Positions 9,231 to 18,003 of a stretch of DNA of 20,560 nucleotides are shown here, one piece after another. The position numbers and the translations under genes are program-made. This DNA comes from a virus, in the IMG/VR virus record IMGVR_UViG_3300042291_000316, positions 1-20,560 of that record; one strand, 5' to 3'. The first letter of the stretch is position 1; every line of letters starts with the position of its first letter. The notes beneath the pieces are model-generated. The model had not been told where the DNA came from. It made no database searches and was given only the letters and a program-made list of their open reading frames with translations.

Positions 9231-10379
9231 TTATAGAAAAGCATATCTTCCTGACATTGGGTTGTCCAGGATATTAAGTGACGCATATCTTAGGGCATCT
9301 ATTGCGTGGTTCAAGAAATCTACAGGTTCATTGTCAAGTTTCCCATCTTTATTCTGTTTCCATTTATAGCCATTAAGTTCCTTCTTTAAATTACTTGACC
9401 TTTGCGTTACGTTTAGTTTATACCTCTTTAAAGTATTAATAGATTGCCTAATGCTATCCGGTCCTTTCTTAGCACCCTCTATTTGCCACCCATAAGCCCC
9501 TAATTCAGCGATTGATTTAGGTTCGGCACTATCTGCTATAATACGCCCATTAACGCCTAATTCACGCATTAAATCGCTAATGCGGATATTAAGCAATCCC
9601 CTATCGTAAATAAGCTCGTCTATAACTAACTCTCCAGATTGTGAATAAAGGGCAACTAAAGCCGTAGGGTCATTACTAAAGCCAAAATCCAATCCATACC
9701 CTATTAGTTTTGCATCTGGGCTTACCCCTGAAATTATATTGTAATCTCTAAATATTACCCCTTCAAGTTTACCTGTAAGACCACGAGCATATACCTTGTA
9801 AAGTTCCGGGTCTTCTATTGCCTCAATTTTATCGTGTATCTTTTGGTCTAAGAAAGTATTATGCCTATGGTCGCTGATTATGAGCGTAACGTTTGGCTTT
9901 CCTATTAAGTCAGTATGTACCCAGAACTCATTGTTTGGGTTATAATCAATATAACTTTTCTTTTTTGTACGGATATAAAGTTCATCCCAAATAATCTTAT
10001 CTACGCCATTTGCCTCATTTAAAAATAAGTAATCCCTTTTACCTTGCTTTGCATCCTGGGCATCATCATAACTTTTAAACTCTATAATAGAGCCATTCAC
10101 GAATGTAAACACCCTATCCGATTTGTTATACTCTAAAATGTAATTAGATAATCCTTCTGTATTTTCTACTATGTTATGCGCATCTCTTATCGGTCCTACC
10201 TTTAAGTTAGGTATATCCTGACCTGCAACAGTTATAATTGCCCTGTCATTTTCTATTGCGTGTAAGAATAGATTTTGCAGTATAGAATAGGTTTTACCGC
10301 TACTTGTACCGCCTTGATTAATTATAATATCGGTATCTGCATTCCGGTTACTTAAAAATACATCGGTTGTTTTAAACAT
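9231..10379 (-). CDS. terL: Large terminase subunit
   Basis: A 382-residue terminase of the PBSX/phage terminase large subunit type, the motor that pumps DNA into the prohead and cuts it. The Walker A motif GGTSSGKT is at residues 23-30, and a Walker B-like strand YLFLNEANG lies near residues 115-123 with the catalytic Glu. The nuclease half has GYGLDFGFSNDPTAL near residue 227 (first metal Asp), IIADSAEPKS near 280 (second) and DFLNHAIDALRYA near 355 (third). All key acidic residues are present, so the protein looks intact, although short for the family. The start overlaps the small terminase stop by eight bases. No portal gene follows, which is unusual. Confidence 0.93.
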   Translation of the reverse strand: MFKTTDVFLSNRNADTDIIINQGGTSSGKTYSILQNLFLHAIENDRAIITVAGQDIPNLKVGPIRDAHNIVENTEGLSNYILEYNKSDRVFTFVNGSIIEFKSYDDAQDAKQGKRDYLFLNEANGVDKIIWDELYIRTKKKSYIDYNPNNEFWVHTDLIGKPNVTLIISDHRHNTFLDQKIHDKIEAIEDPELYKVYARGLTGKLEGVIFRDYNIISGVSPDAKLIGYGLDFGFSNDPTALVALYSQSGELVIDELIYDRGLLNIRISDLMRELGVNGRIIADSAEPKSIAELGAYGWQIEGAKKGPDSIRQSINTLKRYKLNVTQRSSNLKKELNGYKWKQNKDGKLDNEPVDFLNHAIDALRYASLNILDNPMSGRYAFL

Positions 10380-16539: not shown

Positions 16540-17298
16540 TTAAGAAAACGAAACTTTGCCAATTTTTATTTCTTCTTCGAAAAATAAGGCAACCGCTACG
16601 GCTCTGGCTTGATTCTTTAACCAACTTTCAGTCCATTCGTCACGGTACTGCTTTGCGGTTATTATATCCATTCTATTTGCTTTGTAGGTTATAAATTCCA
16701 TTAGTTTCTTTTTAGCCAATGCTCCATCTTCTTTTGTCCACTTCTTTATGCCTGTATCGTTTAGTTTTGTAAATACGCTCAATGGGTTAAACAACTTATC
16801 AAATGTTCGATTTTCCAACAATTTGTATTCTTGGTAACTGTAATCGATTATCTCTAAGTCAGTTAGGTGTGGTATTGCTTCTACATGTTCTTGTGGTATC
16901 ATCTTGCGTACTTCGTTTGCTTTTTTCTTATATCTTTCCATAACCTGACTAAAATATGCAGGACTAAAATTTTGGTAGTGGTCTATAAAGTCATTAGCTA
17001 CCATTTGCTTAAACGCTACCTTGACTTCGTTTATTGTGAAGTACCCATATTCCGAAATAATCCAATCTTCTAAAATCGCAAGTTTAACCTCTCCAGGATT
17101 AGTAATGCCTACAAGCTGCATCAAATAAACAAGGTTTTGTTTAAATATGGTAGAGTTGAGGCTGCGTATCCTCTCCCCCGAAAAGCCTTGCATAATCTCC
17201 CGCTCCATAGGTAGTAGAGTGGATATAGTTGTAGTTGTTAAGGTTGTCGAGTTCGTGTTTATTAAGTTTTGGCTGATTTGTTGTAATTCCTTTTGCAT
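16540..17298 (-). CDS. Replication-linked protein, possible helicase-loader position
   Basis: A 252-residue, mostly helical, polar protein. Residues 1-30 are Thr/Ser/Gln-rich and unstructured; the conserved-looking part begins MEREIMQGFSGERIRSLNST (residues 31-50). Later segments are KLAILEDWIISEYGYFTINE, HYQNFSPAYFSQVMERYKKK and a C-terminal EEEIKIGKVSF. I do not recognise a named domain. It follows the initiator gene exactly where lambda P follows O, so a helicase-loading role is possible, but no AAA+ motif is present. The start at 17298 overlaps the initiator gene by 158 bases; the ATG at 17208 (residue 31) would cut this to 68. Both frames in the overlap look coding. Confidence 0.68.
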   Translation of the reverse strand: MQKELQQISQNLINTNSTTLTTTTISTLLPMEREIMQGFSGERIRSLNSTIFKQNLVYLMQLVGITNPGEVKLAILEDWIISEYGYFTINEVKVAFKQMVANDFIDHYQNFSPAYFSQVMERYKKKANEVRKMIPQEHVEAIPHLTDLEIIDYSYQEYKLLENRTFDKLFNPLSVFTKLNDTGIKKWTKEDGALAKKKLMEFITYKANRMDIITAKQYRDEWTESWLKNQARAVAVALFFEEEIKIGKVSFS

Positions 17299-17875
17299 AT
17301 TTATTTGTGTTAGTTATCCAATTGTTCGCAGCAGCTTTCCAGTTTTTCATCGGGTTTTTGCCTACCTTCCAGCCATTGCTTTCGTAATAATTAAAGAATT
17401 TTTCTCCTTCTATTTTACCTTGCTCTATCCCTAAACGTATACTAAAATACTCTAAAACTTCTTCTAATTTACATTTGCTTTTATTAGTAATAATATCTTT
17501 ATTTATATTTTCATTTACATTTTCCATATGATGAGTCATATGATTATCCATATGAATTTCATATGATGTATTTTCAATAGTTTTTTGTTTACCTTTAATG
17601 TTATTACGCCTGGACTCAGTAAATGTTTTACGTTTATCCTTTTCAATATCAAGCCTGACATTATACCATAAACCTTCATCATCTTGTATAAATTTGCATT
17701 TCACTTGTTCCCACAAGTGACCAACCGTATGTTGTATCATATGCGTATTCATATGACCTCGATTAAATTGAAGCATTAGCAGGTCCATATATGCACCTTT
17801 TTCTTCAAATGTCATTCCCATTGTGCCACTTACATAGTCACCGGGATAAAATAAAAACGCTGGGTCTTTTGCCAT
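17141..17875 (-). CDS. Replication initiator-like protein with DUF1376-type N-terminus
   Basis: A 244-residue protein. The N-terminus (KDPAFLFYPGDYVSGTMGMT then FEEKGAYMDLLMLQF, residues 3-37) is the DUF1376 type found in phage replication proteins, probably a winged-helix DNA-binding domain. Residues 95-130 are a polar linker with repeated His-Met pairs (IHMDNHMTHHMENVN). The C-terminal part FFNYYESNGWKVGKNPMKNW (about 163-182) is a second motif common in initiators. It resembles lambda O in layout: N-terminal DNA binding, linker carrying repeats, C-terminal partner-binding part. The ATG touches a T8 run of the RNA element upstream. The linker codes for the CATATG repeats. Confidence 0.78.
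   Translation of the reverse strand: MAKDPAFLFYPGDYVSGTMGMTFEEKGAYMDLLMLQFNRGHMNTHMIQHTVGHLWEQVKCKFIQDDEGLWYNVRLDIEKDKRKTFTESRRNNIKGKQKTIENTSYEIHMDNHMTHHMENVNENINKDIITNKSKCKLEEVLEYFSIRLGIEQGKIEGEKFFNYYESNGWKVGKNPMKNWKAAANNWITNTNKYAKGITTNQPKLNKHELDNLNNYNYIHSTTYGAGDYARLFGGEDTQPQLYHI
17525..17565. repeat. Four CATATG palindromes at 12, 12 and 11 bp
   Basis: CATATG occurs at 17525, 17537, 17549 and 17560, each followed by A on the plus strand. In the initiator gene three of them read His-Met in frame, while the one at 17560 is read as Ser-Tyr-Glu in another phase. The DNA motif is thus kept even where the peptide is not. A second pair with 12-bp spacing lies at 17738 and 17750. Confidence 0.8.
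17701..17720. repeat. 8-bp inverted repeat TCACTTGT / ACAAGTGA
   Basis: TCACTTGT (17701-17708), four bases TCCC, then ACAAGTGA (17713-17720) form a perfect inverted repeat inside the initiator coding sequence, between the two CATATG groups. It could be a protein-binding site or a DNA/RNA hairpin. Confidence 0.7.
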
Positions 17876-17967
17876 AAAAAAAATAAACCCCGATAGCTGC
17901 GAACTATCAGGGTTATTATTATTTAACCACTAAACACATAGGCGGTTCGCAGTTCGTCTATGTGTCT
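17876..17967 (-). ncRNA. Two-hairpin RNA element with complementary loops and T8 end
   Basis: On the minus strand hairpin A has stem ACACATAG/CTATGTGT (17965-17958 with 17941-17934) and a 16-base loop. Hairpin B has an 11-bp stem (17914-17904 with 17896-17886) and a 7-base loop TTCGCAG. Hairpin A's loop contains CTGCGAA (17952-17946), the exact complement of loop B. Hairpin B is fully paired only as minus-strand RNA, because its one non-Watson-Crick pair is U-G there. It is followed by TTTATTTTTTTT, whose last T touches the ATG at 17875. A promoter-like element lies just upstream. Alternatives are a small RNA of about 90 bases, an attenuator of the initiator gene, or an origin structure. Confidence 0.55.
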
Positions 17968-17973
17968 TTTTTA

Positions 17974-18003
17974 CAAATATAAACTAATTTTCTGTAATTT
18001 CAA
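17974..18003 (-). promoter_or_regulatory. Promoter-like element before the two-hairpin RNA
   Basis: On the minus strand TTG (18003-18001), 19 bases and TATATTTG (17981-17974) fit the Flavobacterium-type consensus TTG-N17-23-TAnnTTTG. The -7 element lies just after the stop codon of the DnaA-like gene and would start RNA near 17967, at the foot of hairpin A. The -33 part is only three bases, so confidence is moderate. Confidence 0.48.

Follow-up and report, generated by a model that had tools for sequence, protein, structure and literature searches.

The window analysed here, a virus record of 20,560 bases, carries in the 108-bp gap between two of its minus-strand genes (17876-17983) a leader with two hairpins whose loops are fully complementary to each other, and the relatives of this leader confirm that the two-hairpin kissing fold is real. 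Elements of this kind seem to head the initiator mRNA in many viruses of Bacteroidetes-type bacteria and probably represent an RNA switch, so far uncatalogued, that controls the replication genes of phages. We propose that it works as a cis-acting transcription attenuator, in which the kissing-loop fold including the terminator gates the initiator operon, a reading to which we give a probability of about 0.6. To our knowledge, little is known about how Bacteroidetes phages time and limit DNA replication, and no description of such a leader was found in the open-licence literature. The element is supported by covariation and stands ahead of initiators whose N-terminal domains are unrelated, both in uncultured viruses and in named isolates. 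It would be a natural case of a terminator that incorporates a kissing-loop fold, with a large set of natural loop pairs at hand, and the named Flavobacterium, Cellulophaga and Olleya isolates make it testable in existing phage-host pairs.

Two hairpins with complementary loops ahead of the initiator gene

On the minus strand, the gap leads from the DnaA-C-domain gene to the initiator-like gene through a promoter motif and then hairpin A, which an AU-rich linker joins to hairpin B; a U-rich tract follows and runs up to the ATG (Table 1). The protein encoded behind the leader gives a weak DUF1376 match, under the curated cutoff, together with PHROG 'primosomal protein' matches, and helicase or primase genes come next after its counterparts in the relatives. 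The length of the gap, both stems, the U-run ending at the ATG and the TTG-N19-TATATTTG element had all been described in an earlier note made on this DNA, and all are present in the sequence.

Table 1. Positions of the leader features and of the flanking genes in the window.
Feature	Position	Strand	Basis
-33 element TTG	18001..18003	-	sequence; N19 ahead of the -7 element
-7 element TATATTTG (TAnnTTTG)	17974..17981	-	sequence and published box position
Hairpin A (H1), at the predicted RNA 5' end	17933..17966	-	11 pairs counted, 34 relatives
Loop 1, CTGCGAA, half of the kissing helix	17946..17952	-	7 pairs; covariation in relatives
AU-rich linker between the hairpins	17915..17932	-	sequence
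Hairpin B (H2), intrinsic-terminator-like	17886..17914	-	11 pairs, 34 relatives; terminator call
Loop 2, TTCGCAG, 7 nt, other kissing half	17897..17903	-	complementarity to loop 1
U-rich tract TATTTTTTTT	17876..17885	-	right after hairpin B; abuts the ATG at 17875
Replication initiator / replisome-organizer-like gene, 244 aa, led by the element	17141..17875	-	protein matches
Upstream gene, DnaA C-terminal helix-turn-helix domain, 142 aa	17984..18412	-	Pfam Bac_DnaA_C, E = 2.9e-11

Judging from its sequence pattern, TTG-N19-TATATTTG would be an active promoter of the Flavobacteria type, its -33 box sitting within the 3' end of the DnaA-domain gene. TATATT and the final G of the -7 element are invariant across the 34 distinct close relatives. 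When the spacing between the TTG and the -7 box was counted in 128 elements, sharp peaks were obtained at 19 (25 cases) and 20 (29 cases), with 0-4 cases at the neighbouring values and a smaller peak of 16 cases at 22. Since the TAnnTTTG box of F. psychrophilum has been placed at -12 to -5 (PMC9723704), the start is predicted at about 17969, a few bases ahead of hairpin A, and the leader RNA is predicted to measure about 94 nt if its 3' end lies at the U-run.

Hairpin A is built on an 8-bp stem, ACACATAG/CTATGTGT (17965-17958 / 17941-17934), with a 16-nt interval. The stem is as the earlier note gave it, while the loop of 16 bases that it had drawn shrinks to an effective 10 nt, two more inner C-G/G-C pairs being formed around a loop that contains CTGCGAAC (17952-17945). 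Hairpin B has an 11-bp stem, AACCCTGATAG/CTATCGGGGTT (17914-17904 / 17896-17886), with one U-G pair. Loop 1 is complementary to all seven bases of loop 2, and an eighth pair is gained when hairpin B contributes its closing G; by an arithmetic estimate, the chance that a 7-nt loop finds its complement in a 16-nt interval is roughly 10/4^7, about 6e-4. The folding energy of the leader RNA has a z of -2.3, with 4 of 200 shuffles equally good. Hairpin B is among the three terminator-like sites that a terminator scan found in the region, against 0.9 in shuffles. The leader combines a stem and an immediate U-run ahead of a coding region, as in intrinsic-terminator attenuators, with two hairpins whose loops of about 7 nt are fully complementary, as in RNAI-RNAII kissing but within one molecule.

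Some other features of the gap were noted. A GGTTA/TAACC alternative, pairing the linker with the 5' arm of hairpin B, is weak (-3.3 kcal/mol folded alone) and is limited to the window's family. In the plus direction, hairpin A (17934-17965) has a T6 run behind it and resembles a terminator; this antisense terminator is not kept in the relatives and was rejected as a part of the element. A short minus-strand reading frame, MCLVVK-stop (17924-17944), begins in the 3' arm of hairpin A and is found in most of the window's family and not in others. Among the 4227 covariance models of Rfam, none matched the window at the gathering score, and nothing was obtained at E <= 1 for the window locus and four divergent relatives.

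Covariation in close and divergent relatives

Relatives of the initiator were first collected by protein search, and the promoter, both hairpins, the U-run and the ATG are kept in 57/57 close relatives with the linker. The loop pairs of this close family are CTGCGAA/TTCGCAG, GTACGAA/TTCGTAC and CTACGAA/TTCGTAG. A search with the linker only, in which neither loop nor protein information was used, returned 65 stretches, 64 of them readable; perfectly complementary 7-nt loops, in three covarying versions, are present in 63/64, so that the pairing of all seven loop-B bases with loop A, already pointed out in the earlier note, holds in the relatives too. The gene after the element is the same initiator in 54 of the 65 window-family stretches, the other followers being a Lin1244-type initiator, another initiator or an HNH gene.

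The close relatives were aligned as A1 (34 distinct sequences, 91% mean identity), in which the number of independent events is small because of their close kinship. Overall, 99.6% of the cells in A1 are paired: 98.9% for the 11 pairs of hairpin A, with a compensatory change at 2 pairs, 100% for the 11 pairs of hairpin B, and 100% for the 7 pairs of the loop-loop helix, where both partners have changed at 2 pairs, in 14 and 16 sequences. The T7-8 tract is present in all 34. The G-U pairs of A1 exist in the sense reading only (82 cells in the mRNA sense, against 0 cells with a G-U pair specific to the other strand), which points to the RNA of mRNA sense as the selected strand. In the divergent alignment A2 described below, the ratio is 34 to 18, sense versus opposite, a weaker signal because unpaired cells of A2 were included in the count.

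More divergent homologues have a leader of the same plan with a largely different sequence. A pattern scan of viral contigs was designed with four bases fixed per loop and the middle two left free, and these free bases are complementary in 63 of the 80 matches, where chance would give roughly 1 in 16 for each candidate. A2 comprises 47 distinct divergent sequences, collected with a scanner that demanded the U-run and complementary loops; this selection affects A2 only, A1 and the linker-found set being free of it. The loop-loop helix of A2 is 100% paired, which is partly built in by the scanner, with both-sided changes at 5 of the 7 pairs and a covariation score of 0.605, against 0.08-0.16 for slid partners and 0.183 in shuffles; the variety of pair types is not a product of the scanner selection. 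A loose scan for kissing hairpins gave about 4 chance matches per shuffled window and was tightened, after which 60 stretches of the relatives' contigs (0.997 Mb) yielded 19 matches versus 0 when reversed. Taken together, these data support a short minus-strand kissing-loop leader, as the earlier note had suggested, with hairpin A standing at its predicted promoter and hairpin B resembling a terminator. The paired changes that it proposed to look for in relatives were found in both stems and in the loop-loop helix, the opposite of the case it had named against itself, namely relatives keeping neither the stems nor the loop complementarity.

In most families an internal loop separates the apical kissing hairpin from a basal stem, and the paired loops are usually of 7 nt + 7 nt. 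A few members have imperfect U-runs, such as ACTTTTAATTT in L092, from which poor termination is expected. No conserved antiterminator helix was seen by eye in A2. The covariance model R1 gives the window element a weak score (17.6 bits, E 0.12); in a search of 395 Bacteroidota genomes, run with no positive control and with 10 candidates scored per genome, it returned no match. A narrow exact pattern gave 2 matches in 395 Bacteroidota genomes versus 7 in the control, by our own count about the control level; because this pattern is narrow, the element may still be present in host genomes. A blastn search of one element against phages returned nothing credible, and in Pseudanabaena phage Pan5 and a human faecal contig the related genes are present and the element is absent.

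Genes behind the leader and named phages

Among 59 pattern-found elements with a promoter, 45 stand directly upstream of replication initiators, whose N-terminal types include DUF1376-like, Lin1244_N, DUF6291, DnaD-like and HTH_36. The remaining followers include HNH endonucleases (8), a methyltransferase-like gene (2) and a protein that is GIY-YIG-like by its sequence (1). Downstream reading frames labelled 'none' were largely the antisense strand of the element itself and were dropped. Where an initiator has no adjacent leader, the leader is often found one or two genes upstream with an endonuclease or methyltransferase between, and in a few contigs an HNH gene of the structural-gene region carries its own copy. 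An attenuator of the replication initiator, as the earlier note had it, is probable, the leader preceding several initiator types; the leader is not confined to initiator genes, since HNH, GIY-YIG and methyltransferase-like genes can follow it too.

The plan is also present in Flavobacterium phages tooticki6-1, lillamy9-1, elemoA and elemoC, in Cellulophaga phages phi19:3 and phi13:2 and in Olleya phage Harreka_1. These elements were recognised by eye in the gap sequences, most of them having been missed by the scanner, which was tuned to short loops; their terminator loops are larger and the complementarity extends over 7-9 bases. The terminator geometry and the U-run are thus found outside the choice of the scanner in tooticki, lillamy, elemo, phi19:3, phi13:2 and Harreka as well. 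Between the terminator and the ATG, most families have about 10 nt; in the named phages this distance ranges from about 20 to about 55 nt, and because of this variation the shared feature is the terminator and not a fixed spacing to the ATG.

Two side observations were made on these loci. The initiators behind the leaders of L352, L309, L321, L324, L365 and L328 differ in their N-terminal domains and several have similar C-terminal parts, as if N-terminal domains had been exchanged behind a constant leader. In L219, L220 and L223, a third partial copy of loop 1 (CGCAGC) lies just ahead of the ATG of the next gene and could pair with loop 2.

A proposed gate on transcription and its alternatives

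The comparisons above show a sense-strand fold with three helices, its wide conservation and its position. Both stems and the loop helix are kept simultaneously, so that selection acts on the complete kissing fold, of which the terminator-like hairpin is a part, and because the distance from terminator to ATG varies between families, transcription rather than translation would be the common function. In the mechanism that we propose, the RNA would start just ahead of hairpin A, from a sigma-A-type promoter that overlaps the upstream gene at its end. Hairpin A would form at the 5' end; its loop would then pair with the loop of hairpin B as B emerges, giving a compact fold. Hairpin B and its U-run would act as an intrinsic terminator before the first codon, as their pattern suggests. 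Much of the transcription coming from the leader promoter and from the upstream operon would stop there, leaving a stable RNA of about 94 nt, and the initiator and the genes that follow it would be expressed from read-through mRNA. How efficiently this gate works would depend on kissing, which would most likely fix the terminator hairpin in a defined conformation to which RNA polymerase or a structure-reading protein responds. Kissing may either strengthen or weaken termination in this mechanism, and the pairing by itself is no demonstration of regulation. A fixed geometry with a free sequence would fit shape recognition, as reported for Rop.

Several other hypotheses could be issued. The fold could serve translation or mRNA stability, setting ribosome access or protecting the mRNA, with termination playing a minor part. 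In its favour, most families have about 10 nt between the end of hairpin B and the ATG, H1 is placed at the 5' end predicted for the RNA, and mRNA structure tunes translation in Flavobacterium (PMC6847099). The named phages argue against this, their hairpin and U-run being still present at about 20 to 55 nt from the ATG, and so does the unchanged leader in families where the first gene varies (HNH, methyltransferase); we consider this explanation unlikely. It is also rather improbable that the terminated RNA of about 94 nt is a discrete small RNA acting in trans on phage or host RNA, the adjacent gene being incidental. A 5' hairpin and a 3' terminator with kissing loops would make a plausible stable small RNA, but the position right before the start codon is kept across many families and the element is linked mainly to replication initiators. 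Moreover, the loops vary freely yet always with a partner in the same RNA, with which an external target would have to co-vary.

A third hypothesis, a sensor of concentration, would have loop 1 of one leader pair in trans with loop 2 of another, giving a plasmid-like feedback on template number. The 7-nt complementary loops do resemble those that start the ColE1 RNAI-RNAII pairing, and loops differ in the contigs with two elements (L079, L298, L303, L312, G009 and L417). Intramolecular pairing should win, however, and six multi-element contigs, in which the difference is suggestive, are too few to show selection for differing loops. In addition, none of 128 elements has an antisense promoter of the form TTG-N18-20-TAnnTTTG opposite the initial 300 nt of the gene, and no antisense terminator is conserved in the relatives. 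Such a sensor is accordingly given little credit. With no antisense promoter of this form, no conserved antisense terminator and the partner in the same RNA, the plasmid-style copy-number control put forward in the earlier note, acting through an antisense RNA, is not supported.

A DNA-level element, whose inverted repeats would belong to a replication origin or be bound by a protein, with an incidental RNA fold, would suit a place adjoining a DnaA-domain gene and an initiator gene, but is disfavoured to the point of being very improbable by the sense-only G-U pairs (82 vs 0), the fixed order of promoter and U-run, a loose DnaA-box pattern whose single match in the window is at 9640 with none at the element, and the copies preceding endonuclease genes in structural-gene regions. 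Equally improbable is leader-peptide attenuation, in which translation of ATGTGTTTAGTGGTTAAATAA (MCLVVK-stop), lying between hairpins A and B and kept in the window's family with a one-base change in some members, would control terminator formation: other families have a start-stop (ATGTAG, ATGTAA, ATGTGA) or no ATG there, and without such an ORF this is not a general mechanism.

The attenuator reading can be compared with known systems. Like the pT181-type plasmid rep attenuators, the phage leader has a predicted terminator in the leader of an initiator gene and loop-loop contacts, and would set the level of the initiator. In pT181 the trigger for termination is an antisense RNA with its own transcription, whereas in the phage the complementary loop belongs to the same RNA and an antisense promoter of the TTG/TAnnTTTG type was not found. 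The phage leader also shares some features with the lambda pR'/6S RNA/tR'/Q system, namely a constitutive-looking promoter, a short and presumably terminated leader and a read-through that downstream phage genes would require, but no qut-like DNA site or Q-like protein was identified for it. The put element of HK022 is likewise an RNA with two stem-loops; it causes antitermination and, unlike the leader proposed here, is itself no terminator with complementary loops. With riboswitch, T-box and protein-responsive leaders the common point is a structured 5' leader RNA with a terminator, predicted in the phage, ahead of a gene; unlike these leaders, the phage element has no conserved ligand-binding core, its sequence being free while geometry and complementarity are kept, and neither an alternative antiterminator helix nor an Rfam match was found. 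The c4 RNA is a structured phage RNA as well, but acts as an antisense on another transcript, and the sequence and structure of the phage leader, which has no Rfam match, are unrelated to it. The c4 antisense RNA of P1-like phages is listed among known RNAs (PMC2864571).

Complementary hairpin loops are likewise those of ColE1 RNAI-RNAII with Rom/Rop. The sequences of the ColE1 kissing loops can change with the interaction kept (PMC9458437), and for Rop, recognition of loop-loop complexes has been reported, as has binding to the unrelated TAR-R06 pair (PMC3127992). Unlike ColE1, where two RNAs act on primer formation, the phage has one leader involving a putative terminator, and the partner hairpin is not carried by a second RNA. 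An extension of the attenuator reading, which we put forward as tentative, would make the leader one of a broad, so far uncatalogued phage class, the intramolecular 7-bp kissing complex being the signal; a factor of the phage or the host would read its shape rather than its sequence and so gate transcription into initiator and homing-endonuclease operons, and the loops would be free to diversify, avoiding cross-pairing between elements of one cell.

Further copies were observed ahead of endonuclease genes. HNH homing-endonuclease genes (several of the NUMOD4 type) have their own kissing-loop leader in L298, L303, L312, L315, L262 and L417, and in some contigs such genes adjoin portal or terminase genes. 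In L302 and L371, a GTGCGAT/ATCGCAC version lies upstream of an HNH-like gene with no clear TAnnTTTG box, and both contigs contain replication genes, nuclease- and helicase-like by eye. In G014 (L239, L240; also L310 and L319), the element lies near one contig end and its first part recurs at the other, suggesting the terminal redundancy of a complete genome.
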